This document shows, piece by piece, positions 10,981 to 32,130 of a DNA stretch of 34,840 nucleotides; position 1 is the first letter of the stretch, and each line of letters begins with the position of its first letter. The notes below the pieces were generated by a model. That model searched no databases. It was not told the DNA's origin and was given only the letters and a program-made list of their open reading frames with translations. The DNA comes from Cytophagia bacterium CHB2 (GTDB taxonomy: Bacteria > Zhuqueibacterota > Zhuqueibacteria > Zhuqueibacterales > Zhuqueibacteraceae): NCBI GenBank assembly GCA_030263535.1, contig SZPB01000015.1:1-34840 (forward strand). Reading direction: 5' to 3'. Made by a program: the position numbers and the translations under genes.

Positions 10981-11565
10981 ATGAAGTCGCCTGTAATTTT
11001 TCTGCCATTCTTGTTGATGGCGTTCAGCCTGGCAAACGGCCAGGGCCTCATCATTCGCCCGGATTTTCAGCCCACCGAACTGGAATTGCGCCGTCATGCA
11101 ATCAATGCACAGTTACATGAACAAATGGCCGTCGTGACGGTCGAGCATGAATTTTACAATCCCGGGGCAACGACCGTTGAGGGCACATTTCTTTTTCCCC
11201 TTCCAGCCAACGCGCACGTTTCGCGCTTCAGCATGAACGTCGACGGCAAGGAGATGGCCGGAGAGCTATTGAGCGCCGAGGAAGCGCGCGGCATTTACGA
11301 AAATATCGTGCGCCAACAGCTTGATCCGGCATTGCTGGAAATGGCTGATTACCGCACCTTTCGCGCGCGTATTTTCCCCATTCCTGCCAAAGCCACACGC
11401 AAGTTAACCCTGCGCTACGACGCCAGTCTCGCGCGCGAGGGCAACACGGTCACGTTTCAATATCCCATGCAGGGGAATCTGACCCATCGCCGCGTCCCCT
11501 GCCTCCTCGCCCGATTGCTCCAATTCCGTTCGAGCGCGAGCGCTCGCAGCAACCTGAAAGGGTGA
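10981..11565 (+). CDS. VIT domain protein, first part of a frameshifted VIT-VWA gene
   Basis: A signal peptide (MKSPVIFLPFLLMAFSLANG) is followed by a VIT (vault/inter-alpha-trypsin inhibitor) domain: VTVEHEFYNPGATTVEGTF, FPLPANAHVSRFSMNVDG, LLSAEEARGIYENIVRQQLD, FRARIFPIPAKATRKLTLRY. After TFQYPMQG (about 11475) the frame turns into unrelated Arg- and Ser-rich sequence and stops at 11565. The missing continuation is found at once in the -1 frame (ESDPSPRPLPPRPIAPIPFE, leading into the next entry). I therefore read 10981-13214 as one gene of about 740 codons with a one-base loss in the GGGG run at 11472-11475, or a slippage site. CGGAGAG a few bases before 10981 supports the start. The product should be exported to the periplasm or surface. 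Confidence 0.85.
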   Translation: MKSPVIFLPFLLMAFSLANGQGLIIRPDFQPTELELRRHAINAQLHEQMAVVTVEHEFYNPGATTVEGTFLFPLPANAHVSRFSMNVDGKEMAGELLSAEEARGIYENIVRQQLDPALLEMADYRTFRARIFPIPAKATRKLTLRYDASLAREGNTVTFQYPMQGNLTHRRVPCLLARLLQFRSSASARSNLKG

Positions 11566-16059: not shown

Positions 16060-17883
16060 TTAAATCAATTTGATGCCAAGTTCCTGCAACTGTTTTGGAG
16101 TAACAGGTGAAGGCGAGTTGTCCATCAACGAAACGGCAGAATTGGTTTTGGGGAACGCGATCACATCTCGAATGGATTTGCGCCCGGCCAGCAACATCAC
16201 CAGCCGGTCAAAACCAAAGGCAATTCCGCCGTGAGGCGGCGCGCCATATTCGAATGCCTCCATCAAGAATCCGAATTTTTGTTCTGCTTCTTCGTCGCCG
16301 ATATTGAGCAATTTGAACATTTTCTGCTGAATATCACGGCGATGAATACGAATGCTGCCGCCCGCGATTTCAACGCCATTCAGCACAAGATCGTATGCTT
16401 TTGCACGGACGTCGCCGGGCGCGGAGTCCATCAAAGGCAAATCTTCATCGAGCGGCGAGGTGAACGGATGATGACAGGCCACCCAACGCTGTTCTTCTTG
16501 ATCGAACTCAAGCAAAGGAAATTCTATTACCCACAACAAGTTTATTTTGTCTTTGGGAATAAGATCTTCGGCCTGAGCCAGTTTCAGACGCAACGTTCCG
16601 AGGATCTCGCGGGCTTTTTCTTTCTTATCCGCGATGAACAACAACAAATCATCACCCTGAACGGCGAAGCGGCCATTGACCTGGTTGACAAAACTCTCTG
16701 AGAAAAATTTTGCGGCTGATCCTTGCCAGCCTTCACTCGTGCTCTTGAGCGCCACCAAACCTTGCGCTCCCATTTGTGCGGCCTGCAATGTGAGATCGTC
16801 GATCTGTTTGCGTGAATATTTTGCGCCGCCTTCAAGACAAATGCCTTGCACGGTTTTGCCGCCCTTGGCCGCCTCGACAAAAACGCGAAAGCCGCATTCA
16901 CCGGCCAGGTCGGTAATCTCACGGATTTCCATGCCAAAACGCGTGTCCGGCCGATCACTGCCAAAACGTGATACCGCTTCGGCGTAAGTCATGCGCGGCA
17001 ACGGCAATGTGACCGGCTTCCCGAGAGTTGCCTGCACCATTTCGGCGACCAGGCCTTCCATCATGCTAATCACATCGTTATGATCGACAAATGACATTTC
17101 CACGTCGATTTGCGTGAATTCCGGCTGGCGATCGGCGCGCAAATCTTCGTCGCGGAAACAACGCACGATCTGGAAATAGCGATCCAATCCCGCGACCATC
17201 AACAGTTGTTTATAGGTTTGCGGGCTTTGCGGCAACGCATAAAAATTGCCATGATAAAGCCGGCTCGGCACCAGGTAATCGCGTGCGCCCTCAGGCGTGC
17301 TTTTCATGAGCATCGGCGTTTCGATCTCAATAAAATTATTGCGATCAAAATAGCGCCGCGTGAGCTGCGCAAGTTGATGGCGAATGATCAAATTGCGTTG
17401 CATTTCCGACCGGCGTAGGTCGAGATAACGGTATTTCAGACGCAGCTCTTCCGCCGCTTCAAAACGATCGCCAATCTCAAAGGGCGGCGTTTTAGCCGGG
17501 TTGAGAATTTTCAATTCCGTCGCCAAGACTTCAATTTCGCCGGTGGCAATATTGGCATTCGTCATGCCCGCGGGCCGTGCTTTGACTTTACCTTTGACGG
17601 CAATCACAAACTCGCTCCGCAGGCTCTGCGCCAGCGTGTGCATTTCTTCATTTTCCGGCGCAAACACGACCTGGGTCTTGCCATAGCGGTCGCGTAAATC
17701 CACAAACAAAACGCCGCCATGATCGCGCCAGCTATCGACCCAGCCGTTCAAAATCACATTATTGTCGCAATGTTCTTTTCGCAATGCGCCACATGTGTGC
17801 GTCCGCTTCCATGTTCCGGATTCGTTTAAGCCTGCCATGTTCTTAGATGTGACTCCCTCTTGAGTTGCACGATTTGTTGCCAA
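16060..17883 (-). CDS. aspS: Aspartyl-tRNA synthetase (bacterial type)
   Basis: Charges tRNA-Asp (or also tRNA-Asn in non-discriminating enzymes; which one is not decided here). The 607 residues are full length for the bacterial form. An N-terminal OB fold (LNGWVDSWRDHGGVLFVDLR) binds the anticodon. Motif 1 and flipping-loop regions follow (IIRHQLAQLTRRYFDRNNFI, FIEIETPMLMKSTPEGARDY, LPQSPQTYKQLLMVAGLDRY), then motif 2 (FRDEDLRADRQPEFTQID), the bacterial GAD insertion, and motif 3 (GGIAFGFDRLVMLLAG). The start is a TTG at 17883: AAGGAGG lies six bases upstream, which outweighs a later in-frame ATG at 17838 (MAGLNESGTW) without such a site. It lies upstream of the tRNA-Lys pair on the same strand, but the tRNAs have their own promoter. 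Confidence 0.97.
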   Translation of the reverse strand: MATNRATQEGVTSKNMAGLNESGTWKRTHTCGALRKEHCDNNVILNGWVDSWRDHGGVLFVDLRDRYGKTQVVFAPENEEMHTLAQSLRSEFVIAVKGKVKARPAGMTNANIATGEIEVLATELKILNPAKTPPFEIGDRFEAAEELRLKYRYLDLRRSEMQRNLIIRHQLAQLTRRYFDRNNFIEIETPMLMKSTPEGARDYLVPSRLYHGNFYALPQSPQTYKQLLMVAGLDRYFQIVRCFRDEDLRADRQPEFTQIDVEMSFVDHNDVISMMEGLVAEMVQATLGKPVTLPLPRMTYAEAVSRFGSDRPDTRFGMEIREITDLAGECGFRVFVEAAKGGKTVQGICLEGGAKYSRKQIDDLTLQAAQMGAQGLVALKSTSEGWQGSAAKFFSESFVNQVNGRFAVQGDDLLLFIADKKEKAREILGTLRLKLAQAEDLIPKDKINLLWVIEFPLLEFDQEEQRWVACHHPFTSPLDEDLPLMDSAPGDVRAKAYDLVLNGVEIAGGSIRIHRRDIQQKMFKLLNIGDEEAEQKFGFLMEAFEYGAPPHGGIAFGFDRLVMLLAGRKSIRDVIAFPKTNSAVSLMDNSPSPVTPKQLQELGIKLI

Positions 17884-18037: not shown

Positions 18038-18102
18038 TTTCTAACAAAATAAAAAACCGCTTATCTAGCGACCCAACGCGGTCATCGCTAAAGCAAGCGG
18101 TT
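18038..18102 (-). terminator. Terminator of the TPR-ExbBD-TonB operon
   Basis: On the minus strand AACCGCTT (18102-18095) pairs with AAGCGGTT (18062-18055), with an inner TAGCGA/TCGCTA stem, and is followed by TTTTTTATTTTGTTAG. It lies 26 bases after the last gene of the operon. Confidence 0.88.
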
Positions 18103-18127
18103 CAGAATTAGAGTCAAAACTATTAAA

Positions 18128-19288
18128 TCAGTAACCGAAGGTGTACACCTGTCTAACAGTCGTATTGCCCTTTTTGGGGTCGATTGCACCAAAATCATCC
18201 CACCGCCGGATGCGACTCAGAATACAATCTTCCACTTCAGAATTCGTGCTGCTCTTGGAAATGATTGTCGCGCTTTCGACAGTGCCTTGTGGTGTAATTA
18301 CGAATCTCACGACAACTTTGCCTTTGAGATTCGGGTCACGTTTGATAGCGCGCTGATAGCAATATTCAATCGCCGGACTATGACTTGCCACCACTGCCTG
18401 AATGGATTCGGCATCGCGGCCGGTGCCGCCCACTTGCCCTTCTTCCGTTTCGATCAACGGCTTTTCACTGGTGATCACCAGCTCACCCGAGCGGCTCACG
18501 CCTTTGGCCTTGCCTTCGCCCAGCCCTTGTACCAAAGCGTCAATATTGCCGCCGCCAGTTTCACGACCGCCGCGGACACGGCCTTTACCAGGCCCTCCCG
18601 AGCCAACGCCACTGCCTTCCGCACCGGCTCCGCCTTCAGCCTCGCTGCTGCTGCCGGCGCGTTTGATGCCGCTAACGCCTGCAAGAGCTTCGTCGAGATT
18701 GGCGTTGGGATTGTGATCACCAAGCAAATCAGCCGCTTCGTTACCACTCGCCATTCCGCTGTTGCTCGTCAACAGGCCGAGCAGGCCTTGATTGCCAACT
18801 TGTTCTCGAATAACTGCGCGTGAGCGCCGCCCGCCCGCTGCCGGGCCACTCGTTCCGGCAATTTCACCGCCTCCACCTCCCGGCTCTCCGGTGTCATCTC
18901 CCTGGCCGCTGCTTTGCCCTGTTGTTCGCCGCGACGCTCCGGGATTGACGATGCCCGTAGGCGTGCGAACAGTACTCGCCGTCGGCTCCTCTGAGGGTAA
19001 CTCATCAGGCGCGACATCCAACGGTGTTTCGACAAATTGGGTTTCGCTTGACGCCTTTTCCAAGACAAGCCGGGCAAACTGCTCTTGCACCCGCGCCACA
19101 TCGTGTGTTGGCGGATTTTTTACAAAATAAACAATGACGAGAAAATGGATGATCAGAGAGGCAACCAGCGTCACTGAAAAGCGGCGATCAAGCGTTTGCC
19201 ACCAATTGTACTCGAATTCCTTCGGGAATACGAGGCCAGACCTCGGTGTGCCCTCATGCTGTCGTTGCGTGCTGCTCTGCGCCGGCAT
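18128..19288 (-). CDS. TonB-like protein with AgmX/PglI-type C-terminal domain
   Basis: 386 residues with an N-terminal cytoplasmic tail, one membrane segment (LVASLIIHFLVIVYFV, ~residue 42-58), a long Gly/Ser/Glu-rich periplasmic linker with runs such as GEPGGGGGEIAG and GSGVGSGGPGKG, and a ~95-residue C-terminal domain. This domain (IEYCYQRAIKRDPNLKGKVV, then VRFVITPQGTVESA, ending VEDCILSRIRRWDDFG) matches the AgmX/PglI C-terminal domain, a TonB-C relative named from Myxococcus gliding proteins, with its two conserved cysteines. It should carry force or signal from the ExbBD motor across the periplasm to the outer membrane. The ATG at 19288 with AAGGA upstream is preferred; an in-frame TTG at 19315 has no ribosome site. 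It is the last gene of the operon, followed by a terminator. Confidence 0.88.
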   Translation of the reverse strand: MPAQSSTQRQHEGTPRSGLVFPKEFEYNWWQTLDRRFSVTLVASLIIHFLVIVYFVKNPPTHDVARVQEQFARLVLEKASSETQFVETPLDVAPDELPSEEPTASTVRTPTGIVNPGASRRTTGQSSGQGDDTGEPGGGGGEIAGTSGPAAGGRRSRAVIREQVGNQGLLGLLTSNSGMASGNEAADLLGDHNPNANLDEALAGVSGIKRAGSSSEAEGGAGAEGSGVGSGGPGKGRVRGGRETGGGNIDALVQGLGEGKAKGVSRSGELVITSEKPLIETEEGQVGGTGRDAESIQAVVASHSPAIEYCYQRAIKRDPNLKGKVVVRFVITPQGTVESATIISKSSTNSEVEDCILSRIRRWDDFGAIDPKKGNTTVRQVYTFGY

Positions 19289-19384
19289 ATTGTCCTTCAG
19301 GGTTACTTGGCTCAACAGATTTAAGATTTAATTCAGCAGATGTTGTATTCATCCATGAAACAGAGTCATGGCGGTGCGCTGTAA

Positions 19385-19897
19385 CTATTCGCTGCCTTCG
19401 CGGTAAACGACCAGCCGCATGTTCGGATAGTCCGAAACGCCGCAGGTACGCATCACTTTCACCAATTCGGCGTAGGGCAGCTCTTTGTCGCCCTGGATCA
19501 TGACTCTGCCGGAAAATTTGACGCCGTAATCGACTTCCATTTTCTTCGCTTGTGTACTGTAGTAACGCAGGCGCTCCCGCAATGGTTTGATAATGCCATT
19601 CTCAACCACCGCAGGATTATTGGACATCACGTCATCCATCGTCGCGACTTTCTCGTGATTGACTAGAATAATCTGCTTGGATACGATCAAATCCAAACCC
19701 ACCTGGGCCGGCTCTTCAATCAAGGAGTTCGGCAGTTTCAAATATTCCGAAGGCGAGATGAGCTGGCCCTCGGTGGAGAATGTCTTCAGCAAAAACACGA
19801 GAATGATCGTGAACATATCCATCATCGAGGTGAGATTGAGTTTCACCTCGACGGCTTTGGTGTCGTGCTTTTTGATTCTAGAAGGTATAAAAGCCAT
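19385..19897 (-). CDS. ExbD/TolR family protein with conserved membrane Asp
   Basis: About 170 residues: a short cytoplasmic tail (MAFIPSRIKKHDTKAVEVKL), one membrane helix (LNLTSMMDMFTIILVFLLK) and a periplasmic domain with SGRVMIQGDKELPYAELVKV. The Asp in SMMDMF is at the place of the proton-carrying Asp of ExbD/TolR. The periplasmic part (IVSKQIILVNHEKVATMDDV) is longer than in classical ExbD. The start at 19897 is chosen because the resulting N-terminus (MAF-PS) mirrors its paralogue just upstream; an in-frame GTG at 19930 is possible. It partners with the ExbB/TolQ protein two genes upstream and the second ExbD to form the energised inner-membrane motor. Confidence 0.9.
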   Translation of the reverse strand: MAFIPSRIKKHDTKAVEVKLNLTSMMDMFTIILVFLLKTFSTEGQLISPSEYLKLPNSLIEEPAQVGLDLIVSKQIILVNHEKVATMDDVMSNNPAVVENGIIKPLRERLRYYSTQAKKMEVDYGVKFSGRVMIQGDKELPYAELVKVMRTCGVSDYPNMRLVVYREGSE

Positions 19898-19961
19898 ATC
19901 GCATGCCGGAAAAGTTGTTTCGAATTTCACGAGCGCAGGTTGTGCGCCCCGCCGCCCGCCG

Positions 19962-20504
19962 TCAGATGACGCCGGCGCTCAAAGACACTTGCGGAAAAAG
20001 AATCATGGGCCCACCTTCGAGGCGTATCATGCGCGCCGCGTCCATCGTGCTGACCAGTACTTGGTAACGGATCTTATTCTCAGCCTGAATGATGATGGAT
20101 TCGGAATCCGAGAAGCCGTTGCCAATATTTTGTTTGATCTCATGGAGCTTTTGGGAAAGCGCTTGAAAATCATACTCGCCGTTTGTTTGGATGGGAATGG
20201 TCGGCCCGGTCGCCGTTGCGCCCGTGAGCATTGCCGCCGCGCTGGAAATATAGAAGCCCTGATCGGTGATCGACACTGTGAGATCCAGTTTGCGCTGCGC
20301 TTCTTTGGGCGCGCTGCCGCTCGCCATGCCGGCGGTTGCGCCGGCGGCCGGCGGCAAATTCAGCTCAATGATGCCGATCTTGATGAACTGCGCCGACGAG
20401 AGCAGCAACGGAATCATCACCACCATCAAATTCATGATGGGCGTGAGATTTAATTCCGTGCTCTCCTCCTTGATGTGCCGGCGCTTCGAAGGTTTAAAAG
20501 CCAT
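19962..20504 (-). CDS. ExbD/TolR family protein with Asn in place of the membrane Asp
   Basis: 180 residues: a basic cytoplasmic tail (MAFKPSKRRHIKEESTEL), one membrane helix (LNLTPIMNLMVVMIPLLLSS) and a periplasmic domain ending FPQVSLSAGVI. The LNLTP start of the helix is the ExbD/TolR signature, but the Asp that takes up protons is Asn here (PIMNLM). If ExbD works as a dimer in the channel, a D/N heterodimer with the paralogue at 19385 could have only one proton path; that is inference. The periplasmic part has an Ala/Gly/Thr-rich insert (AAGATAGMASGSAPKEAQRK). The ATG lies two bases after the ExbB stop (TAG-CC-ATG), showing tight coupling. Confidence 0.92.
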   Translation of the reverse strand: MAFKPSKRRHIKEESTELNLTPIMNLMVVMIPLLLSSAQFIKIGIIELNLPPAAGATAGMASGSAPKEAQRKLDLTVSITDQGFYISSAAAMLTGATATGPTIPIQTNGEYDFQALSQKLHEIKQNIGNGFSDSESIIIQAENKIRYQVLVSTMDAARMIRLEGGPMILFPQVSLSAGVI

Positions 20505-20506
20505 GG

Positions 20507-21157
20507 CTATTTATTCCCGGTGAGAAGATTGATCAGCTTCACGGTGTGCTCGTCGATCTCATCGATGATCTTTGCGGTTTTGTTGAACAAAAACGTGTAA
20601 ATCAACACGGCTGGAATGGCCACGGCCAAACCCATCAATGTTGTATTCATTGCCGCACTGATGCCGGCCGCGAGCATGCGCGCCTTCTCCGCCGCATCAA
20701 TTCCCGGAGATGAAACCGCCTTGAAGGCGAGAATCAAACCCCAGATGGTGCCCATAAGGCCGAGCAACGTTGCCACGTTGGCGAGCATGGCCAAAAAACT
20801 GGTGCGCTGATTCAACCGCGGAATCACTTCCAGCGTGCTTTCGTCCACACTGTTTTGAATGGCGCGAAAATCCGTCACTTCCTGCTCCGCCACGCGGCGC
20901 AAGCTGGCGCCCACGACTTGCGCCAACGCCTTTTCCGGCGCTGCGTCACACAAGGCCAGGGCTTTCTTGTATTCGCCGGCGCGTACGAGCTTGCGAATCT
21001 CGGACATGAATTTGCTGGCGTTGATGTTCGAGCGTACCATCAGAAAATAGAAGCGCTCAATGGCGATCGCTGCTGCGAAAGCGCCAACGACGAGAATGGC
21101 ATACATGTAGGGGGCGCCGTCGGCTTCCCACCGAAAGGCTTCGATAAAACTATCCAT
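20507..21157 (-). CDS. MotA/TolQ/ExbB proton channel family protein
   Basis: 216 residues with the three-helix ExbB/TolQ plan: helix 1 near the N-terminus (YMYAILVVGAFAAAIAIERF), a cytoplasmic loop with repeated basic/acidic residues, helix 2 (FLAMLANVATLLGLMGTIWG) and helix 3 (ISAAMNTTLMGLAVAIPAVL). The small-residue and Thr-rich LLGLMGT and NTTLMGL motifs line the channel in this family. It forms the stator-like pentamer around the ExbD helices and uses the proton (or sodium) gradient to move the TonB-like partner. AGGAGG about eight bases before the ATG gives a strong start. It heads the four-gene motor block, 94 bases after the small exported protein. Confidence 0.95.
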   Translation of the reverse strand: MDSFIEAFRWEADGAPYMYAILVVGAFAAAIAIERFYFLMVRSNINASKFMSEIRKLVRAGEYKKALALCDAAPEKALAQVVGASLRRVAEQEVTDFRAIQNSVDESTLEVIPRLNQRTSFLAMLANVATLLGLMGTIWGLILAFKAVSSPGIDAAEKARMLAAGISAAMNTTLMGLAVAIPAVLIYTFLFNKTAKIIDEIDEHTVKLINLLTGNK

Positions 21158-21251
21158 GAAAAAACCTCCTAATACGTTATCCTTAGTTTGTCTGAAAATT
21201 CCATCCGGTGAATTTGGGGGTCTATTTTGTGTATTGCGCTAGACAATACCA

Positions 21252-21662
21252 TCAATCCTTTTTCTTTGCGGGAATTTTCTTAAGCCCGTCAACTTTTTGC
21301 GGTTGATCGATAGTGTCATCGTGCAGCAATATTCCTTTCGAAACAGATTTGAGTTCCCGCGCAAAACTGCGCTCCAGTTCGCGCATCTCTCCGAAATCAG
21401 GTTTGACGCGTTTGGGGATAATATCCACGTTGGGCTTCTCAATGACGGCTTCGATGGCAATGGCTTCCAGCTCAAGCTCATTCAGGTCGGATTTCTCTTT
21501 GGCCGCGGCCGGCAGTTTCTTTGCCGTGTCAGCCGGCGCTTGCTGCCGAACGAGGCCAGAGTTTCTTTGCAGCGAATCCGGCGTGGCCGGCTGCGCTTCC
21601 TGCGCCGACGCTGATCCCACGCCTGCAAGCAAGAGCATTAAAAAAATGGACCGGGCTAACAT
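21252..21662 (-). CDS. Small exported protein of the envelope-machine operon
   Basis: 136 residues with a signal peptide (MLARSIFLMLLLAGVGSASA before QEAQP). The mature part starts with a disordered Gln/Pro/Ala stretch and then has a charged conserved-looking core, ELEAIAIEAVIEKPNVDIIP, followed by KRVKPDFGEMRELERSFARE, and a Lys-rich end. I recognise no domain. A VIEKP-type motif followed by a helix suggests a small periplasmic adaptor that binds a partner by an extended segment. It lies nine bases after the 1550-residue TPR gene and before exbB, so it is surely part of the same transcript and probably of the same complex. Confidence 0.8.
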   Translation of the reverse strand: MLARSIFLMLLLAGVGSASAQEAQPATPDSLQRNSGLVRQQAPADTAKKLPAAAKEKSDLNELELEAIAIEAVIEKPNVDIIPKRVKPDFGEMRELERSFARELKSVSKGILLHDDTIDQPQKVDGLKKIPAKKKD

Positions 21663-21671
21663 CGTTGCGCC

Positions 21672-24600
21672 TCATTTTAAATTGGGTACAATACCGCGCT
21701 CAAAAATGAGCATTTCTTCATAGCGTTCCTTCTTCAACTGCGCTTCCGTCTGGTGTTTTTCCCAGGCCGGCAATGTCTTTAGAAAAATGACCGCCTCCAA
21801 CCCGCCACCGGAATTGTCGGTATCGCGCACTTCGAAGGCGACAACATTGATGCCGCCTTTCAAGAAGTTGGAGAAGTCATGGATGTTCGTTTTACCGCCG
21901 TTCGCCGCAGAATTCATGACTTGCGCAATATATTCGCCATTCACAAAAAGATTGTATGAGTCATCGGCTTGCACCTGAATCTGTCCGAACACAGGCAGGC
22001 CTTTTAACTCAAAGGCTTTGCGAAAATAGGCGGTTTTGACATTGCTGCGACTGACGCTCGAAACATTTGCTGCCTTTTCAACCCGCGGCGCGCCGGACGA
22101 TGAATCAGGCGGCGCTTCGGCCTGGCGATCGCCGGGCAACCACACGCGCTTGGCATCATAACCGCTAAATGCCGTCGAGGCCTCGAGCGCTTGCGCCGCC
22201 TGCCATTGCGCCGCGGCATAATCAATAGCAGTCCAATTACGCGCATATTGCGCCGTCACGGACCAGGTCTCGTCAGTTTTAATCGTCGTATCGGCAATGG
22301 CAAGATTCAACTCTTGCGCATATTTCGCCGGGTCGCTGCGCACGAGCGTCAACGTGATTTTTTCCGACCAGGGATTTTCGATGCTATGATCGCGCATCGC
22401 AAGAAATCCGGCTTCGAGAATTTCTTTTTTACTGTCGGTTAAGGCGAAATTATTTTCTTCGAACGTAAACACGGCATCCTGAAATTGATCTTTTGATTCC
22501 CGCCGCAGCCTCTCTTCGAAGGCAAGACGCTCCGCATTTGCAACGGCCGCCAGCGAATCAACCTGGCGGGCATGGCTGAAAACGAAACTCAGCAATTGAT
22601 CTTCCGTGTCTTCCAGCGCGCGGGCATGCAGATCAGCCTGCTTGGCGCTGTTCAAGGTTTCGAGGTAGGATTGCACCGCCGCTTTGGCAAACGAACGCCC
22701 AAAATCGATCAAATTCGCCATTTCCTCCTTCACATCATCAGCCTGGAAATCGGCGGTTGCAATCATGTTCTTGTATGTGCCAATATCGCCGGCATATTGC
22801 GACATCGCGCGCTTTGACAAACCGACATATTCGCGTGCAAGCGCATTATTGGTTTCAATAATTTTCCGGCGGGAGAGATCCAGCCAGGCGCTTTCGATGC
22901 CGAGCGAATCACATTCTTTAAGATTACGTTGATGCGCCTGAATCGTCTGCGCCACCAACGGTTTGACAAACTTGCTCAGCAACTGATTGCGAAACTCAAG
23001 CGCCGTGATCTTGTCCATGTTTTCCGGCGTCGGCGCGTCGAGCAACTGCTTCATCGAAGCGCTGTTCAACTCCGCGATATCATAGATCACTTCCGACACC
23101 TTGTCTTTGCTGCGTTGAATCCAGCGCCGCGCAACTTGTACCGTCGTGTCTTCCAGGGCAAGCTTGGCATTGCGCACCGTCGTATCCGGAGGATTATTGT
23201 ACTGGCTCGCCAGGCGCTCCAGCGCCAGCGCCGCATGCTTGTATGATTGCAACGAACGTTCGTACAAATCTGTAGCCGCCTGATTGATTTCTTTTTTTGC
23301 GACAATGCGGCGATTTTCGTCGACTTCCGGTATTTCTTGATCCGCCCAGGTTTGCGCAAACTCTTCGTAGGCCGCGCCGATTTTATGTGTGGCTTCATAC
23401 AACCTCAAGGTGCCAAAGCTCGCGACCCGGGTATAACCGTTCACGATGTCGATCAGCGAGTTCTTCTTGCGGTCTTTCGAAGCGTCCATCTGCGCTTTTG
23501 GCAGCTTGAAACGAACTTCGGCGAAATCGCGAAATTTTAGCTCGGTTAAGCGAAACAGCGCTTCGCCGGAAAAGAAATCATTATAATCCATCTCGCGGCT
23601 GCGGAACTCATCGCTTTTGCCCATGGCTTTTTCATACTCGGCGCGCGCTTGCGGCAGCAAACCTTTCCATTCAAAATACTCGCCCCGGCGATAGAACGTT
23701 TCCACCACGCGCGGCGAATCCGGAAAGCGCACGGCATACTCGCCGTACACATTGTTTGCTTCTTCGAGCTGATCGAGTTTGAGGTGATAATTCGCGATAT
23801 CGTAGAACAAATCATCGGCATCCTTTGAACCGGGATATTTATCCACAAACTTGCGATTGACGCGGATGGCGCGTTCCCAATCCTGGGCGCGCACAAAATT
23901 CACGCTGGCATTGAACAAGCTGGTCTCTGCTTTGGCGGCGTCCGGCTCTTCGTTCGCCAGGCGTTCGAACGTGATCGCGGCATTGAGAAAATCATTCAAT
24001 TCGCCGTAGTCATACGCCATGTTATTCAAGCCGCTGAGATAATGCGGCGACTTCGGAAAATTGTCCGTCAAAAGGGCATACGTTTCGACCGCGCGGCGAT
24101 ACTCGCGCGCTTGATCGAATTCAAGTCCGGCGTTGTACAGGGCAAGATCGGCAAATTCCGCATTCGGCACCTCTTCATACACCCGGCGGTATTCTTCACC
24201 GGCGCGCACATGTTGTTCGATATGCGCCAAATCCTCGGCTTGCAAGAAAATGGATTCTGCCAGGCGCTTCTCCGCCTTTACGGCATATTCACGATTCGGC
24301 GAATTGAGCTTGATGCGCTTGGCCACGATTTCGCAGCTTTTGTAATCAAGCTTGCCGAAGTAACTCTCCATTACAAGATACTCGGCATAAGGCGCATCCG
24401 TGCTTTGCGGGAAATGCTTGAGCAATGTTTTAAAATACTTCAAGGCGCCGGCGAATTCATTCTTGTTATAGTACAGCGCACCGGCTTGCGCCAAGCGCTC
24501 CGCGGTTTGCGACTCATGGGGGAAGAGCTTGATATAATTATCCAAGGCTGTCGCCAGGTTTTCTTCGCCGACCGACATCGGAATCGCCTCCAGCTTCAGA

Positions 24601-26324
24601 GCCTGGCGCAAACTGTCGCGGTTCATCTCCACGGCAGCTTTCATTTCGCCGAGCTTCAACGGCAACACCTGCGGCCGGCGCATGGTATCCGCGCTTGCCA
24701 TTTCCTGCGACAACGCCACGGCATTCTCGGCCGCCAGCTTCTGGAAACGGCTGTTCCAATACCGATTGCTGATTTCAATATACTCTTTAAACGCCTCGGG
24801 AGGTTGTTTGAGTTTGGCATCCAACGTCAAAGCGAGATTCCAATGAATCAACGCCGCCATCGTATCTTTGGGAAACGCCACGAGATATTTGCGGCTGTCG
24901 TTCACCGCTTGCGCATAGAGATTGTTGTCGTTATACTCATCCGCTCGCTTGAGCAAGAGATTGACGTTCTCGCGCAGCGCACGCTCCGCCAAGGATTTGC
25001 CTTCCTTCCGAATATCTTCAGAAGTATTGTTTGTCCACCAAGACGTGCCTTCGCGATAATCCATGAACAAGCTGTCGCGCTGCATATAAGCCATTTGTTC
25101 ATCATCGAGCGCGCGATAAGCCTCGGCAATTTTGGCGCGCACGGTCGGAGCTTTCGGCGCGTTGGGATACATGCGCAACAACAGGCGAAAGGCACGGATC
25201 GCATTCTCGTGCTCTTCTTTTACGGTCATGTAAATGTCGCCGATGCGCATGAGAATATCGATGCCGTATTCCCGTCCCCCGAGATCCGCGAGATATTGCG
25301 CGGCCTTGTCCGGGCCTTCATAGTCAAGAAACGAGATGCCAATGTATTCAATCGATTCTTCCAGCAGGCCAGGGTTGGTGATTTGATTTTTGGGATCATG
25401 CTTCTTGGCGCGATGCAGGTCGTCCGCCAGCAGCGTGAAATAAGAAATCGCCTGCGGATAGTTGTTGAATTTGTAGTGCGCCCAGCCGAGACGGTACAGG
25501 GCCTCGTCGTATTTCGGGCTATCGCCGTATTTCAACACTTGTTGATAAATGGCGATGGCGCTGTCGAGCGAGCTTTTGGGAGGGTTGAAATAATACTCCG
25601 CCACCCGAAAGAGCGCATCAGGGATATAGCGACTGTCGCGATACGTTTGAATGAAATCCTGATAGAGCTTGACTGCTTGCTCGCGTGGACCGAGATCCTC
25701 GGTTAAGAATGCAATGTTGTATGCCGCATCGTCGCGCAGCGGACTATCGGCATGCTCATCCAAAATGCGGCGATACAGCGTCAGCGAGGGCGTAAAATCC
25801 TTTTTCGGCTCGACCGGGGTTTCCGTCACCAGGCCGGAATCGAGCTTGGCAAGTTGCCGCGAATAATGCTCCTGGGCGACCGCATAGCTTTCGAGAGACT
25901 TTTCATAGTACAGCTCAGCCAGGCGCAAAATGACTTTGTCTTTCACTTTGCTTTTTGGGTGGCTATTCAAAAAAGTCTCCATGTCCCGAATGCCTTTTTC
26001 GCGCAACAACACGCGTTCGCGTTCGGTGCGCAGCCGCTGGCGTTCATAAAAATCCTTGTATTCGAGCAGCTCGTCGATCGTATAGGATCGCAAGGTCGAA
26101 TCCGGATTCAAACGCGAAATGGTTTTCCCTGCGTCCGGCTGGCGTGAGGGCGCGGTGAAGGGCGTATCGCGAACAATCTGGCCAAAAGCGTGATCGTTCG
26201 CCGCCAGCGCGACGCCGAGCAAGCAGGTCAGCGCGAGCAGTTTGGTAGCCGGCAACGTGGCGCGTTGTTGCGCGAACGCCTGCTTTTTTTGCGATATGTT
26301 GGGGGTGCGATAATTCAAGATCAT
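21672..26324 (-). CDS. Giant periplasmic TPR protein with C-terminal carbohydrate-binding-like domain
   Basis: 1550 residues. The N-terminus has a Sec-type signal (LLALTCLLGVALAANDHAFG, residues ~29-48). Nearly all the rest is helical TPR/TPR-like solenoid: repeats such as LRLAELYYEKS, ALYRLGWAHYKFNNYPQAI, KYDEALYRLGWAHY, FAGALKYFKTLLKHFPQ, FADLALYNAGLEFDQAREY and TFYRRGEYFEWKGLLPQA, the last ones of the kind found in outer-membrane assembly lipoproteins (BamD/YbgF-like). After ~residue 1060 a long charged coiled segment follows. The last ~120 residues (from KTAYFRKAFELKGLPVFGQI, with DSYNLFVNGEYIAQ) look like a galactose-binding-like beta sandwich. It probably acts as a large periplasmic scaffold. 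The start has no clear ribosome site; it follows the upstream TPR gene by 130 bases. Confidence 0.88.
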   Translation of the reverse strand: MILNYRTPNISQKKQAFAQQRATLPATKLLALTCLLGVALAANDHAFGQIVRDTPFTAPSRQPDAGKTISRLNPDSTLRSYTIDELLEYKDFYERQRLRTERERVLLREKGIRDMETFLNSHPKSKVKDKVILRLAELYYEKSLESYAVAQEHYSRQLAKLDSGLVTETPVEPKKDFTPSLTLYRRILDEHADSPLRDDAAYNIAFLTEDLGPREQAVKLYQDFIQTYRDSRYIPDALFRVAEYYFNPPKSSLDSAIAIYQQVLKYGDSPKYDEALYRLGWAHYKFNNYPQAISYFTLLADDLHRAKKHDPKNQITNPGLLEESIEYIGISFLDYEGPDKAAQYLADLGGREYGIDILMRIGDIYMTVKEEHENAIRAFRLLLRMYPNAPKAPTVRAKIAEAYRALDDEQMAYMQRDSLFMDYREGTSWWTNNTSEDIRKEGKSLAERALRENVNLLLKRADEYNDNNLYAQAVNDSRKYLVAFPKDTMAALIHWNLALTLDAKLKQPPEAFKEYIEISNRYWNSRFQKLAAENAVALSQEMASADTMRRPQVLPLKLGEMKAAVEMNRDSLRQALKLEAIPMSVGEENLATALDNYIKLFPHESQTAERLAQAGALYYNKNEFAGALKYFKTLLKHFPQSTDAPYAEYLVMESYFGKLDYKSCEIVAKRIKLNSPNREYAVKAEKRLAESIFLQAEDLAHIEQHVRAGEEYRRVYEEVPNAEFADLALYNAGLEFDQAREYRRAVETYALLTDNFPKSPHYLSGLNNMAYDYGELNDFLNAAITFERLANEEPDAAKAETSLFNASVNFVRAQDWERAIRVNRKFVDKYPGSKDADDLFYDIANYHLKLDQLEEANNVYGEYAVRFPDSPRVVETFYRRGEYFEWKGLLPQARAEYEKAMGKSDEFRSREMDYNDFFSGEALFRLTELKFRDFAEVRFKLPKAQMDASKDRKKNSLIDIVNGYTRVASFGTLRLYEATHKIGAAYEEFAQTWADQEIPEVDENRRIVAKKEINQAATDLYERSLQSYKHAALALERLASQYNNPPDTTVRNAKLALEDTTVQVARRWIQRSKDKVSEVIYDIAELNSASMKQLLDAPTPENMDKITALEFRNQLLSKFVKPLVAQTIQAHQRNLKECDSLGIESAWLDLSRRKIIETNNALAREYVGLSKRAMSQYAGDIGTYKNMIATADFQADDVKEEMANLIDFGRSFAKAAVQSYLETLNSAKQADLHARALEDTEDQLLSFVFSHARQVDSLAAVANAERLAFEERLRRESKDQFQDAVFTFEENNFALTDSKKEILEAGFLAMRDHSIENPWSEKITLTLVRSDPAKYAQELNLAIADTTIKTDETWSVTAQYARNWTAIDYAAAQWQAAQALEASTAFSGYDAKRVWLPGDRQAEAPPDSSSGAPRVEKAANVSSVSRSNVKTAYFRKAFELKGLPVFGQIQVQADDSYNLFVNGEYIAQVMNSAANGGKTNIHDFSNFLKGGINVVAFEVRDTDNSGGGLEAVIFLKTLPAWEKHQTEAQLKKERYEEMLIFERGIVPNLK

Positions 26325-26454
26325 GCTGAATCAGACTCGGTTAAATGGCTTCCTTCCATTCGCTCGAGGAGGTCTTTAGGGTTTATGTTTCAGGCATCGC
26401 GACGGTTGCAACAGAGCTGCGCGGCCGGCAAACGATGCTGTGCTTAACGCCGCT

Positions 26455-29391
26455 TTAGGGCGTGAGTTTTTCCGGAGTTGTGACTGTTTTAGCTGGCGTG
26501 TTGCGCAGCGTTTCAGATTCCGAAGTATCAAAATAGAAAAAATCAAAATACTTCTGATGCTCAAGTTTATCGAGGCGAACCTGTTCCTCCAACAACTCTT
26601 CCTCGATGCGATGCATCTCCTCGTCGAATCGTTTCAAGCGCATTTGCAAGCTTGCTTGCCGGTCGCGCAAGATCCCATCGATGGAGGCGAGATTGCTGGC
26701 TTGCAGCTCGATCTTGTGCTCACGCCGCTCCATTTCTTGAAAGGTGAGATCGCTCAAGCCGAAACCGGAAAAATCCGCCCATTGGTCGAAGTCACTTTGA
26801 ACCTCTTCGATGTCGTAGCTGTTCAGCCAGGTTTGAAACCGATCCATACGATACTTCAGGTCGGTCAAATCTTGCTGCAAAATTTCAAAGTTGGTGGCCA
26901 GTTCCACTTTATTACGGTCACTGCGCGCCAGCAGACTCTGGAATTGCGCCACGCTTTCTTGCAAACGCGTCTGCTCGCTTTCCATTTCCACCATTAAACT
27001 GTCCACGATTTGCTTGCGATAGGCTGCGCCGCTTTCCTTGACAGCAAGCGGGTATTCCACCCAGTAATTCACGGCCTGGACCGCACGATCTGCTTGATAG
27101 GTCTCCAGCGCTTTCACAACGCGATTGCGCTGTTGCACGGCTTCTTTAGCAACCTCGAGCTGGCCGGTCTTTTGCGCTTCGGCAATGACGCGATCGAAAT
27201 AGCGAATCTGCACATACATGCTTTGGCGTTCATCCGCGAATTCATCCATCAATAAATTGCCTTTGGGGCCGCGATAATTAAAATTGAGCAAGATGGCCTG
27301 CAAATTTTGCTTGGCCTGCGCAATCAGCTCATAAAGCGGCTTATCCTGCCGCTCCAATACCTGCTGCTCCATCTGATCAAGCTCGGTGAGCTGCGCCACA
27401 ATCAAACGGCGCTCTTCGTTGTATTCACTGGTTACATCGAGCACGCCGCGGGCATTGGTAACATAGCGAAAATCTTTCATGGCGGAAGCGGGGCGCTCCA
27501 ACAAACGCTTGCAATGCGCGCTCAACGCCAGCGCTTCATAGGTGTAATTCGACGCCAGATAATTGCCCAACAGAGCGTCGGTCTGCGCAATGCTGCTTTC
27601 CAAATTGCCTTGCTTCATTTGCGTCCACGCCAAACCCAGCAAGCTTTGATCATAATGCTCGGAGCCTTTCGACACTTGCTCGAAATAGTTAACGGCTGTG
27701 GCATAATCGGCGCGTTCGTAATAGAGAAAACCCAGCTTGACCAGAGCATTGTTCCGCAGCAGGGTATTGAAAGCGGTGCTCCAGGGCAGCGTTTCCGCAT
27801 TCGCAACAGCGTCGAAGTGTGACAACGCGGCGGAGGCGTTGCCCAGATTCACTTGTGCGATGCCGCGCAGATAACGCGCCGCCAGATGATATCTTGAGCT
27901 TGCAGGAATGCGCGACAACTCGGCTTCCACCGCATTGAAGCGGTCGAGCGCAAGATGATAATAGCCGGCAAGGTAACGCCCGCGCTCGAGAATTCGCGGC
28001 TCAATGCTCGCCGACAGCGAGTCCATTTTCTGATAATAAACGAAGAATTGATCCTGCCATTTCAGCGTCTGGGCAATGCTGATCAAACGCAACAGCGCCA
28101 TGCCGCGAAATTTACTTGCCGGATATTCGTGCAAGAGCTGTTCATAAATCTTGTACGCTTCCGGAAAAATCGCGCGTCCATAAAGCGACTCGGCGCGGTA
28201 AAAAATCACAGCTTCCCAGTTCGGGGAGATTCCGTGCCGCGCAAAATAGGGATCATAGTCCCGCCGCGCGGCTTGAAATTGCAAATCCGCAAGCAAATAG
28301 CGCTCCGCCGCATAATTCAACAAAGCATCGCTGAGATCGCGATTGAGCATGCGCAAAAACGAACGTGTTTCAGCGGTTTGCAATAAATTCTTTTTGAGAA
28401 TCGCGTATTGCGTGCGCTTTACCTCAAACGCCGTGTGCCGCCCGGCGCGCCATTCCTGAAAAGCCTTCTCTAACGTTATCGCCGCGGTGTCGGGCTGTTC
28501 GGAGTATCCCAACAAGTCGATCAGATTTTTATCCAGCTTCGATAGAATTCCCCGGCGTTCCGCCTCCACGTCCACCGCGCCGGTGAGTGTTTGCGCTTTC
28601 CGCTGATCGAGCTTATCAAGTTGTTGCAGAACTTTGGTGAGCTGTTCGACTTCGTTCAAATAGGCTTCGGCAAACGCCGGATCGTCTTGCGTGACGTCGT
28701 ACATTTTAGCGACGATCGCTTGAATCTTTTCCTTCTGTTGCTTGACGATCTGCAACGCGCTTGAATCGCGGCGGGCCACAGCGGCGCGCTCGAATCTTTC
28801 CAGGCGTTCGTACATGCGCAACACGGAATCGACTTCGACGTCGTATTCGCGCACCAACCCGGCTTTGTAGTCGGTGGTGGGCAAGTTCTTTTTGTAAATT
28901 TCACGGCTCTCCACCACGGCCATCAGCCGGTCGCGCAAATCGCTGAACTGTTCGAGCAGCTCGTTGCGGTTTTCTGTGCGCAGCGTTTTGGAGAGCGCCT
29001 GAATTTCATCGAGCATCGCCAGAATCGCTTCCAACTCGGCCGTATAGTCATTGACCATGCGATCCATATCGCCATAGATCTGGGCAAAGCCCGCATGATC
29101 TTTGGCGATGCCTTCGAGGCCGCGCTGCTTGATCTCGGTGTAGAGGTTCTTGATATTCTCCAGCAAAAGGCGTTCTTGCGCGGCAGTTTCAACGAGATAG
29201 GTTTTCGTTTTCTGGTCAAGATAAAACTTGAGCCGTTCGTTGTAGCGCACGGTCTTTTGTTTGTCGAAGACGCCGCTCTCTTGTGCGGTTGCCGGAGAGA
29301 CAAGGATGGGAATGAAATACAGGCCGGAGATGAGCAAAAAAGCACAAGCGTTTTTTCTAGCGCGACCTGTCCTTAGTCCAATAGGCCACAT
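26455..29391 (-). CDS. Large periplasmic TPR/coiled-coil protein
   Basis: 978 residues with a signal peptide (core ACAFLLISGLYFIPILV, cleavage near PATAQES). Residues ~40-350 are long charged helices (KFYLDQKTKTYLVETAAQER, EAILAMLDEIQALSKTL). The middle carries TPR units (YRAESLYGRAIFPEAYKIYE, GFLYYERADYATAVNYFEQV, LLGLAWTQMKQGNLESSIAQ). The last ~250 residues return to coiled coil. The start at 29391 is chosen because GAGGA lies six bases upstream; the frame runs on to a codon at 29499, but that extension would put 36 unlikely residues, rich in Cys and His, before the signal peptide. It is the first gene of the operon, and its promoter should lie in 29400-29650. The partner is presumably the next TPR protein. 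Confidence 0.86.
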   Translation of the reverse strand: MWPIGLRTGRARKNACAFLLISGLYFIPILVSPATAQESGVFDKQKTVRYNERLKFYLDQKTKTYLVETAAQERLLLENIKNLYTEIKQRGLEGIAKDHAGFAQIYGDMDRMVNDYTAELEAILAMLDEIQALSKTLRTENRNELLEQFSDLRDRLMAVVESREIYKKNLPTTDYKAGLVREYDVEVDSVLRMYERLERFERAAVARRDSSALQIVKQQKEKIQAIVAKMYDVTQDDPAFAEAYLNEVEQLTKVLQQLDKLDQRKAQTLTGAVDVEAERRGILSKLDKNLIDLLGYSEQPDTAAITLEKAFQEWRAGRHTAFEVKRTQYAILKKNLLQTAETRSFLRMLNRDLSDALLNYAAERYLLADLQFQAARRDYDPYFARHGISPNWEAVIFYRAESLYGRAIFPEAYKIYEQLLHEYPASKFRGMALLRLISIAQTLKWQDQFFVYYQKMDSLSASIEPRILERGRYLAGYYHLALDRFNAVEAELSRIPASSRYHLAARYLRGIAQVNLGNASAALSHFDAVANAETLPWSTAFNTLLRNNALVKLGFLYYERADYATAVNYFEQVSKGSEHYDQSLLGLAWTQMKQGNLESSIAQTDALLGNYLASNYTYEALALSAHCKRLLERPASAMKDFRYVTNARGVLDVTSEYNEERRLIVAQLTELDQMEQQVLERQDKPLYELIAQAKQNLQAILLNFNYRGPKGNLLMDEFADERQSMYVQIRYFDRVIAEAQKTGQLEVAKEAVQQRNRVVKALETYQADRAVQAVNYWVEYPLAVKESGAAYRKQIVDSLMVEMESEQTRLQESVAQFQSLLARSDRNKVELATNFEILQQDLTDLKYRMDRFQTWLNSYDIEEVQSDFDQWADFSGFGLSDLTFQEMERREHKIELQASNLASIDGILRDRQASLQMRLKRFDEEMHRIEEELLEEQVRLDKLEHQKYFDFFYFDTSESETLRNTPAKTVTTPEKLTP

Positions 29392-29979: not shown

Positions 29980-30012
29980 AAAAAAAACGGGGGCGGGAAA
30001 TCCCGCCCCCGG
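29980..30012 (-). terminator. Terminator of prc
   Basis: CGGGGGCGGGA (29988-29998) pairs with TCCCGCCCCCG (30001-30011), and on the minus strand the stem is followed by TTTTTTT. It starts 34 bases after the prc stop. Confidence 0.92.
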
Positions 30013-30045: not shown

Positions 30046-32130
30046 CTATTGCTCGACCACCTTGCCGCGGTACTGCGGTTTGGAGAGCAGCAAAAGATCA
30101 CAGACGATGTGCCCGCTCTCTTCCAACAGCGGATCCGGCGCATTCTCGATGGTCGGCGCTTTTTCACCTTTTTTAAGCGGAGGCAAACCGCGGGTGGTGC
30201 GGCGCTTGTTTTCAATCATGAGATTTTCTTCTTCCGCAGCCTCACGCTCTTTGAGACGCCTGCTCTCTTGCAATGAGATCGCGGTTTTAGCGCGCTCGCG
30301 TTGATACCGTGTGAGATCTTCCTCCCGGAAACGAAATTCGGGATTTTTCGCGGTGCGCTGTTGTGATTTCGTGCGCAACTGCGGCAAAAACTGCGAAACT
30401 AAATTCCAACGCGTGAAGCCGGTCGGTTGAATTTGATCCCACGGCAGCGCATTGCGTTCCGCGCTTTCACCAATTTCGGAATCACCGGGATCCGAGGGGA
30501 ACTGAATGTCCGGCAACACGCCTTTGTGCTGGGTCGTGCCGCCGGCAATGCGATAGAACTTTGCCGTGGTCAGTTTGACCTGGCCGAGCTTGGCTTCCGC
30601 GGTGGGGATGTAGCGATCGAGGCTGATCAATTGTTGCACGGTGCCTTTGCCGAAGGTTTGATCGCCCAAGACCAGGCCGCGATCATAATCCTGAATCGCG
30701 GCGGCAAAAATTTCCGAGGCCGAAGCGCTGCGGCGATTGACCAACACGGCAAGCGGGCCGTCATACGCGACGTCATTATCGTGATCTTTCAACACTTTCA
30801 CGGAACCGTCGCTGTTGCGAACTTGCACCACCGGGCCGTTGTCGATAAACAATCCGGTCAACTCCACCGCTTCTTGCAACGCACCGCCGCTGTTGTAGCG
30901 CAGATCGATGATCAAGCCGTCAATCCCGGCTTTTTTCAGCTCTTCGATTTTCTGGCGCACGTCGCGCGTCGTGCTTTTATAATTCTTGTCGTCGCGCGCT
31001 TGCGCTGCCATATCGGAATAAAAGGTCGGCAAGCTGACCACGCCGATGCGATAGGTGTGGCCTTCGTGTGTGATTTCGAGCGTGTCACTTTTGGCTTCGC
31101 GATCGGTGAGCACGATCTTGTCGCGCACCAGCGTCAATTTTTTCGGAGGGCCGCCGGCGGTGGCCTCGGCAGGAATGATTTCGAGGCGTACGGTTGTGCC
31201 TTTTTCGCCGCGAATCATTTGCACGACGTCATCCAGCCGCATGCCGACCACGTCAACCATCTTGCCGTCAACGCCCTGCCCCACGCCCACGATTTTATCA
31301 TTCGCCCACAACTCCCGGCTGCGATCGGCCGGGCCGCCTGGGATGATGCGATACACCACGGTGTGCTCGCCCTCGGTCACCAACTGCGCGCCAATGCCCT
31401 GCAGCGACAAACTCATTTGAATGCCGAAGTTTTCCGAAGCGATCGGCGACATATAATTCGTGTGCGGATCAAACGTTTCGGAAAAGCCGTTCATGAAAAT
31501 TTGAAAAACGTCTTCAGACGTGTTTTGTTTGACGCGCTTTTGAAAATTTGTCCAGCGGCTGGTAATGGTGCTGACCACGCCTTCGTCATTCTTGCCCGCC
31601 AGCTTCAAGCCCAGCGCTTCATTCTTCAAGCGCTTGCGCCAAATCTCGTTCAATTCCACAACGGTTTTGGGCCAGGGCGCCTTGTCGCGCGCCGGCTCAT
31701 AAAATTCGTCAAGGGTGAAATCGAATTTTTGATTGGCAGGATTGAGAACGTAGGCAATGCGCTCATCGACCCGCTTGATAAATGTGTTGTAAATATCGTA
31801 CGCCGGCAGCAATTGCCCGGAGGTAACGGCTTCGTCGAATTGATAACGGTACTTTTTGAAGCTCGCGATATCTGAGCTGAGAAAAAAGCTGCGATTGGGA
31901 TCAAGCGCCTCGATATAGTAGTCCAGCAAATGGGAGGACACGGAATCATCGATCGCCATCTGGCGGTAGTGATGGTAGGAGAACAAGCGCGCCACCACTT
32001 TGCTCACCACCGGGTGTTGCCGCTCGGGCAAGAGATCGTCCGCCCGGGAAACATGCACTTGAAAAACAAGCACACTGCAAAGCAAACTCAAAAACATTTT
32101 GGTTGCAAACCTTGAAAAATTAGTTTTCAT
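30046..32130 (-). CDS. prc: Carboxy-terminal (tail-specific) processing protease
   Basis: 694-residue periplasmic S41 serine protease of the Prc/Tsp type, which trims or degrades envelope proteins from their C-terminus. It has a signal peptide (MFLSLLCSVLVFQVHVSRA), an N-terminal helical domain (LDYYIEALDPNRSFFLSSDI), FDPHTNYMSP, a PDZ domain (SLQGIGAQLVTEGEHTVVYR, IIPGGPADRSRELWANDKIV) and the S41 core: GLIIDLRYNSGGALQEAVEL, RRSASASEIFAAAIQDY and TFGKGTVQQ. By the usual 25-residue spacing the catalytic pair is Ser470 and Lys495. The C-terminal extension (RFREEDLTRYQRERA onward) is the helical domain of long Prc forms. GAGGA lies ten bases before the ATG. It is a single gene with its own terminator, downstream of the thioredoxin pair. 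Confidence 0.97.
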   Translation of the reverse strand: MKTNFSRFATKMFLSLLCSVLVFQVHVSRADDLLPERQHPVVSKVVARLFSYHHYRQMAIDDSVSSHLLDYYIEALDPNRSFFLSSDIASFKKYRYQFDEAVTSGQLLPAYDIYNTFIKRVDERIAYVLNPANQKFDFTLDEFYEPARDKAPWPKTVVELNEIWRKRLKNEALGLKLAGKNDEGVVSTITSRWTNFQKRVKQNTSEDVFQIFMNGFSETFDPHTNYMSPIASENFGIQMSLSLQGIGAQLVTEGEHTVVYRIIPGGPADRSRELWANDKIVGVGQGVDGKMVDVVGMRLDDVVQMIRGEKGTTVRLEIIPAEATAGGPPKKLTLVRDKIVLTDREAKSDTLEITHEGHTYRIGVVSLPTFYSDMAAQARDDKNYKSTTRDVRQKIEELKKAGIDGLIIDLRYNSGGALQEAVELTGLFIDNGPVVQVRNSDGSVKVLKDHDNDVAYDGPLAVLVNRRSASASEIFAAAIQDYDRGLVLGDQTFGKGTVQQLISLDRYIPTAEAKLGQVKLTTAKFYRIAGGTTQHKGVLPDIQFPSDPGDSEIGESAERNALPWDQIQPTGFTRWNLVSQFLPQLRTKSQQRTAKNPEFRFREEDLTRYQRERAKTAISLQESRRLKEREAAEEENLMIENKRRTTRGLPPLKKGEKAPTIENAPDPLLEESGHIVCDLLLLSKPQYRGKVVEQ

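Follow-up and report, generated by a model that had tools for sequence, protein, structure and literature searches.

A seven-gene operon of a KSB1 bacterium that probably encodes a variant of the Agl/Glt core motor

Background & Summary

Contig SZPB01000015.1 of Cytophagia bacterium CHB2, from the KSB1 phylum, carries seven consecutive genes on its minus strand at 18128-29391. Positions are those of the window, which is the whole stretch that was analysed: 34,840 nucleotides, positions 1 to 34,840 of the contig. Read from the open reading frames (ORFs) and from domain searches, the genes form a compact operon, with gaps of about 2 to 131 bases between them. Its product is probably a proton-driven motor that works across the envelope, as a variant of the Agl/Glt core complex. 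This holds for its membership of the class and for the path of force. Its function would be transport or upkeep at the envelope or cell surface, rather than gliding as such.

At the level of sequence, what points to the class is the conserved gene order, the ExbB and ExbD clades, matches to the GltG and GltC models, a link to GltF, and a histidine in the transmembrane helix of the transducer.

The class itself is known. The core complex consists of AglRQS with GltC, D, E and G, and Luciano et al. described clustered homologues, of unknown function outside gliders, in gammaproteobacteria, Geobacter and Fibrobacter in 2011 (PMC3169522). The same arrangement is also present in Fibrobacter succinogenes, as FSU_2397-2403. 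Compared with the open-licence literature, four things appear to be new. These are a pair of modules in KSB1, a rule for Asn and Asp in the ExbD pair, the connection to GltF, and the sugar-binding terminus of the protein in the GltD position. The motor class also occurs in bacterial groups for which no report of it was found in that literature. Such modules, compact and contained in a single operon, are on offer for structural work.

An initial annotation of this DNA had described seven minus-strand genes in a row that end in a strong terminator, with an ExbBD-type motor, an AgmX-type transducer and a likeness to AglRQS/Glt. All seven ORFs and the hairpin with its T-run are confirmed. The domain scores agree (MotA_ExbB 92 bits, ExbD 55 and 46 bits, AgmX/PglI 87 bits), and the likeness is borne out by the ExbB tree. 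The annotation had also thought of a distinct system, which the evidence does not support. This is not an unprecedented machine, because the ExbB groups with AglR, there is likeness to GltG, GltC and GltD, the 136-residue protein has a relative in GltF, and the core complex has been published (PMC3169522). Conversely, a second paralogous module, the Asp/Asn asymmetry of the ExbDs and the sugar-binding-type domain all go beyond what the annotation contained.

Below, module A stands for the window's type of module and module B for its paralogue. Loci were sampled around homologues of the operon's largest protein (1550 amino acids, aa), fetched from relatives; those from other phyla are a limited sample. 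The myxobacterial reference is G109, a 9 Mb genome from the kinship search. Its GltC scores 1060 bits against a cut-off of 450, and it has clusters like the glt and aglRQS loci of Myxococcus.

The motor core

The channel subunit is an ExbB/TolQ/AglR-type protein of 216 aa (20507..21157), recognised by domain search, tree and channel threonines. In a tree of 74 ExbBs, those of KSB1 module A, KSB1 module B and the modules of other phyla form one clade with the two AglR-type rows of G109 (SH-aLRT, the Shimodaira-Hasegawa-like approximate likelihood ratio test, 99). The 23 other ExbB/TolQ rows, which include four from the genome of the window, fall outside this clade. Within it, KSB1 A and KSB1 B are each a single clade, and A groups with the A-type modules of other phyla (96). 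The channel threonines, namely the one in LMGTIWGL and the two in MNTTLMGL, occur in every one of the 33 module-A proteins, so the channel has not decayed.

The two ExbD proteins differ at the position of the proton-binding Asp. ExbD1 (180 aa, 19962..20504), of the AglQ lineage, has Asn25 (codon 20430..20432) at the alignment position where ExbD, TolR and MotB have their proton-binding Asp. Seven residues later comes Pro32 (NLTPIMNLMVVMIPLL). ExbD2 (19385..19897), of the AglS lineage, is 170-181 aa long, with an alternative ORF opening at GTG 19930. Aligned in the same way, it has Asp at the proton-binding position (codon 19817..19819; NLTSMMDMFTIILVFLL).

This difference recurs through most of the sampled class. 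A tree of 127 ExbDs puts the ExbD1 and ExbD2 proteins of the modules in two separate clades (SH-aLRT 96 and 97), with myxobacterial AglQ in the first and myxobacterial AglS in the second. Asn with Pro is found in 47 of the 51 members of the ExbD1/AglQ lineage; the other four, two myxobacterial AglQ-type rows along with L245 and L256, have Asp and lack the Pro. An approximately unbiased (AU) test does not reject a single clade of these Asp-type proteins (p 0.29). All 51 proteins of the ExbD2/AglS lineage have Asp, as do all 23 of the other ExbDs that align. ExbD matches from L250 and L263, which have no module around them, were excluded from these counts.

Both TolR-type subunits of G109 have Asp, and so do AglQ and AglS of Myxococcus, for which it is stated to be unknown whether they form hetero- or homodimers (PMC9389320). 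The two-Asp state is thus that of Myxococcus, and since it is absent in 47 of 51 members of the class, the operon is best described as a variant within this class rather than as a duplicate of the machine in Myxococcus.

In Myxococcus, the AglQ substitution D28N abolishes function and paralyses the motor (PMC3858216). Here the AglQ-type protein carries this same substitution naturally, while its AglS-type partner keeps Asp. Asn in one lineage together with Asp in the other speaks for heterodimers that have one proton site each. The simplest reading is that ExbD1 and ExbD2 pair and that ExbD2 would be the sole proton carrier; the alternative is that ExbD2 forms homodimers and ExbD1 has another role.

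The balance tips slightly towards a more general statement. Most motors of the Agl/Glt class would be obligately asymmetric, with a 5:2 arrangement and an ExbD heterodimer, in which an Asn+Pro pseudo-subunit mimics the neutral state and the other subunit carries the protons. The two-Asp gliding motor of Myxococcus would then be the exception, which has either regained its Asp or retained an older state. The internal symmetry of this class of motor becomes a testable question.

The GltF-like protein and the transducer

Just upstream of the ExbB gene lies the gene for an exported protein of 136 aa (21252..21662), to which domain searches assign no family. Among 13 homologues, L65, I68, I70, E75, K76, P77, V79 and R85 are invariant, which gives the core pattern L..I.I....EKP.V.....R. 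In the window this conserved core motif reads ELEAIAIEAVIEKPNVDIIPKR (21408..21479).

A hidden Markov model (HMM) built from KSB1 proteins only was run against 6,486 ORFs. It retrieves the small proteins that occupy the same position in other phyla, and also a myxobacterial GltF-position protein at E 2.3e-6. After two rounds, GltF of the G1-like cluster is found at 3.5e-14. The link rests on matches that align over the KP motif; first-round matches to the signal peptide only (L188, L190, L191, L205 and L262) were set aside. The invariant residues and the HMM link identify the protein as a relative of GltF.

Luciano et al. placed GltF in a recently acquired set, and their non-myxobacterial core has one extra, unmatched gene (PMC3169522). 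That gene may be this GltF relative, and the finding suggests that GltF is part of an ancient core.

The last gene of the operon encodes a TonB-like force transducer of 395 aa (18128..19315, likely start at ATG 19288). It consists of one transmembrane helix, a Gly-rich linker and an AgmX/PglI C-terminal domain (18137..18415; NF033768, 87 bits against a cut-off of 40). TonB_C matches at 28 bits and the GltG equivalog at 80 bits, which is under its cut-off of 650. Of 30 module-A homologues, 24 have a His within the transmembrane helix; such a conserved His is the feature by which TonB and TolA bind their motor (PMC12204202).

The core motif of the GltF-like protein is a candidate docking strand for the TonB-like domain. 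GltF has been likened to a TonB box (PMC9389320), and GltG/GltJ to TonB, as part of a pulling model (PMC9389320, PMC5349195).

In a rival reading, the operon would replace Tol-Pal in outer-membrane constriction and integrity at division, with ExbB, ExbD and TonB acting as TolQRA and the tetratricopeptide repeat (TPR) proteins as CpoB-like partners. Both TPR proteins do match the YbgF/CpoB model tol_pal_ybgF, at 117 bits and, for the one of 978 aa, at 34 bits, and a common mechanism has been proposed for the Tol and Agl types of motor (PMC5349195). However, the TonB-like domain is of the AgmX type, the TolA model reaches only 13 bits, and there are two ExbDs. A TolR-like ExbB-ExbD pair is available elsewhere in the genome (L003), and some near-complete genomes of the phylum lack the module. 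TolB and Pal are not found among the scanned neighbours of the operon in the window. A Tol-Pal replacement is very improbable. The initial annotation had reported that TolB, Pal and a TonB-dependent receptor are not adjacent, which agrees with the scan, and the block is not the ordinary TolQRA that it had named as the contrary case.

TPR scaffolds and a sugar-binding-type domain

The first gene of the operon, in the GltC position, encodes an exported TPR protein of 978 aa (26455..29391, from ATG; the ORF opens at TTG 29499, which gives a 1014-aa form). The GltC model matches residues 505-661 of the longer form at 42 bits, with a cut-off of 450. The AlphaFold model is all helical, at a mean predicted local distance difference test (pLDDT) score of 73. 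In the numbering of the 978-aa form, it has long helices at residues 50-300, short TPR-like helices at 307-630, and long helices again at 634-952. The predicted layout is that of a coiled coil, a TPR part and a second coiled coil.

The exported TPR protein of 1550 aa (21672..26324) takes the GltD position. For this position, the profile of the module-B family scores 327 bits against the 1219-aa protein of the myxobacterium. The modelled C-terminal end (mean pLDDT 85) is a helical bundle followed by a beta-sandwich at about residues 1344-1518 (21771..22295), where NF041573 also matches, over 1405-1532. Foldseek finds PDB matches for the sandwich in sugar-binding domains of GH2 glucuronidases, rhamnosidases and PA14, at E 1e-4 to 1e-3. 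Overall template modelling scores are low because only one domain matches.

On the strength of the model, the GH2-like domain suggests a glycan as cargo. That a glycan is what this motor moves is a tentative idea, with the chances somewhat against it.

How the motor could work, and what weighs against it

Five ExbB subunits would enclose one ExbD1-ExbD2 heterodimer. Protons would pass via the single Asp of ExbD2, with ExbD1 mimicking a permanently neutral state. The resulting rotation would make the TonB-like arm grip the GltF-like strand and so pull on the TPR scaffolds at the outer membrane. The scaffolds in turn would pass the pull on to a surface or periplasmic polymer, perhaps a glycan, or to a glycan-bearing partner in the outer membrane.

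Several points count against placing the operon in the Agl/Glt class. The GltC and GltG matches are far under their equivalog cut-offs (42 versus 450 and 80 versus 650 bits). GltE is without a counterpart in the window's module, which has no further TPR gene. The positions and profile scores of the two large proteins do fit GltC and GltD, but part of the TPR similarity is generic, and TPRs inflate scores; the cargo and the mutual binding of the seven proteins are proposals. In addition, the outer-membrane and adhesin parts of Myxococcus (GltA, B, H, K and CglB) are not recognised in or beside the window's operon.

This last point also counts against a gliding machine proper in KSB1, which is highly improbable. 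Such a machine would fit the core that is shared with Agl-Glt in the ExbB tree, and the AgmX-type transducer. Yet Luciano et al. argued that the core does not drive gliding by itself, and that no other copy in M. xanthus replaces the motility set (PMC3169522). The GldL and GldM models, which describe the gliding and type IX secretion motor of Bacteroidota, match none of the seven operon proteins.

Comparison with known systems

Like the Agl/Glt core, the operon has an AglR-type ExbB, TolR-type ExbDs of the same two lineages, a GltG/AgmX-type transducer and exported TPR proteins, and like the homologues of that core outside Myxococcales, its genes are clustered. The differences are that the AglQ-lineage ExbD has Asn where Myxococcus has Asp, that the transducer has no counterpart to the FHA region which GltG has in the cytoplasm, and that the protein in the GltD position is larger and has the sugar-binding-type domain. 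A GltF-like protein is part of the core. GltE is missing from the window's module, whereas modules of other phyla such as L254 and L268 do have a GltE-like TPR gene.

The Agl-Nfs spore-coat machine of Myxococcus belongs to the same motor class and moves a glycan-linked complex around the cell surface (PMC3858216). In that case gliding and the spore coat draw on one Agl motor (PMC3858216), whereas here the seven genes are one operon. No polysaccharide export genes adjoin it in the window.

Similar in layout is the cluster FSU_2396-2403 of Fibrobacter succinogenes (OmpA, two TPR, ExbB, ExbD, ExbD, TonB), compared via its published annotation only, which has the same order and similar sizes (PMC6851124, PMC4619616). 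The reported sizes are TPR proteins of 84 and 147 kDa, an ExbB of 23 kDa, two ExbDs and a TonB family protein of 32 kDa. Unlike the window's operon, this cluster has an adjoining OmpA gene. The TPR, ExbB, ExbD and TonB proteins of FSU_2397-2403 were detected in envelope proteomes, several of them only or more on cellulose, and the authors proposed import of cellodextrins or a cellulose-binding complex (PMC6851124, PMC4619616).

This brings in a further explanation, a specialised Ton system. The block would energise nutrient import via TonB-dependent receptors, with the TPR proteins as accessories, comparable to Vibrio TonB2 with TtpB-TtpD. The transducer does end in a TonB-type domain, and FSU_2400-2403 were raised on cellulose (PMC6851124), with import of cellodextrins proposed for this similar cluster. 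Vibrio TonB2 (TtpB, TtpC, TtpD) likewise combines an ExbBD-TonB motor with extra proteins and with a TPR protein, TtpD2, that is essential for iron uptake (PMC6957404). However, the Vibrio system imports siderophores, has the extra TtpC and, as described, one ExbD per system, and lacks a second giant TPR protein (PMC6957404). The operon's ExbB lies outside the other ExbB rows in the tree, and the same genome has separate ExbB-ExbD-ExbD loci with Asp in both ExbDs. A receptor gene is absent in and beside the operon; this covers the adjacent genes in the window, distant receptors being outside the scope. A specialised Ton system is unlikely.

The vWA force transducers similarly combine a TPR protein, one TolQ, two different TolRs and a transducer with one helix, although this ends in a vWA fold and not in a TonB-like domain (PMC12204202).

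Conservation and neighbourhood

The seven genes occur in identical order and strand in 30 of 33 loci of the same class. Two of the exceptions are cut by contig ends, and in L066 no TonB gene was detected. The order is also kept in further families of KSB1 and in the other-phylum loci L205, L206, L261, L262, L264 and L269. This excludes chance association. The initial annotation had treated the genes as one functional unit and suggested looking for the seven families together in this order. They were found so in the loci above, and the TPR genes do not lie apart from the motor block.

In all 69 KSB1 genomes searched, the 1550-aa protein has one or more relatives, and most of the genomes have module A at full length. 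Some near-complete genomes, for example G022, G035, G046, G048 and G029, have only matches of the module-B type. This means that module A is not indispensable.

Module A has notable neighbours. In 17 KSB1 loci the genes immediately upstream of it are those of an F-type ATP synthase, atpA-G-D-C (L035, L036, L040-L042, L045, L051, L054, L056-L059, L061, L067, L068, L140, L142). In three loci of other phyla (L251, L264, L269) it directly follows atpC, and atpD is there too if the contig or stretch extends far enough. The gaps in these KSB1 and other-phylum loci go down to 6 bases. Other KSB1 families have it after V-type ATPase genes instead (B-D-I-K; L144, L146, L148-L151). An aspartyl-tRNA synthetase (AspRS) gene is downstream in most loci. 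Either one type of ATPase was exchanged for the other at this site, or it is the position that counts; likewise, the adjacency is either mere ancient synteny or a matter of linked expression.

Loci L068 and L069 (G007, G009) hold a strongly diverged module A, in which the TPR protein has 1360-1380 aa and 23-25% identity. The one of L068 still sits between ATP synthase and AspRS.

A second, paralogous module

Module B of the KSB1 phylum has the same seven families in the same order: a TPR protein of roughly 450 aa or a pair of 225 aa each, a TPR protein of roughly 960 aa, a small protein like GltF, ExbB, ExbD1, ExbD2 and a TonB-like protein of roughly 450 aa. The genome of the window has it in two parts, on contigs C256 and C311 (L070, L071). 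Modules A and B of KSB1 are apart in the tree, yet a common clade is compatible with the AU test (p 0.22). From the trees, a duplication that predates the KSB1 phylum is likely.

The GltG model covers most of the module-B transducer (residues 37-455, 83 bits). A cytoplasmic FHA domain in these transducers is suggestive only, as the Pfam matches are sub-threshold (E 0.0054 and 0.045), with OdhI at E 0.0012.

Upstream of module B there is usually a conserved protein of about 350 aa with a signal peptide and the motif GG[RK]GL.R..[SE]AE, for example at L072:5045-6058 and L153:4174-5244. For the L072 copy, neither Pfam nor NCBIfam gives a match. By inspection, the protein may be an outer-membrane barrel.

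In one KSB1 family (L158, L162 and L177, from G029, G050 and G055), module B has seemingly lost ExbB and both ExbDs, whereas its TPRs and its GltF-like and TonB-like proteins are retained. A full module-A match is also missing in G029 and G050.

Borders and other genes in the window

At its 3' end the operon closes with a Rho-independent terminator (18045..18103, minus strand), a hairpin at about 18054-18103 followed by a T-run. This hairpin is strong: an 82-base stretch folds at -28 kcal/mol. Beyond it lies the AspRS gene (16060-17883). Upstream, a gene for a Prc-type protease (30046-32130) holds the place taken elsewhere by the ATPase genes, and its own strong terminator (29988-30011) is the 5' limit of the operon.

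A search of a plasmid collection gave no match for the TonB-like protein, and for the 1550-aa protein a single weak TPR match, in Bacteroides.

The window also holds genes of other kinds. At 33233-34681 there is a Peptidase C25 (gingipain family) ORF with a FlgD-type Ig domain and an end that resembles a secretion tail, a layout known from substrates of type IX secretion. The ORF opens inside the Pfam domain, so its true start may be further upstream, or the gene may be broken. A RuBisCO large-chain family protein, RuBisCO or RuBisCO-like, is encoded at 13819-14997, with matches to both the N-terminal and the catalytic domain. Finally, adjacent ORFs of 194 and 550 aa at 10981-13214, which overlap by 4 bases, have a VIT and a VWA domain, as if one inter-alpha-trypsin-type protein had been split in two.

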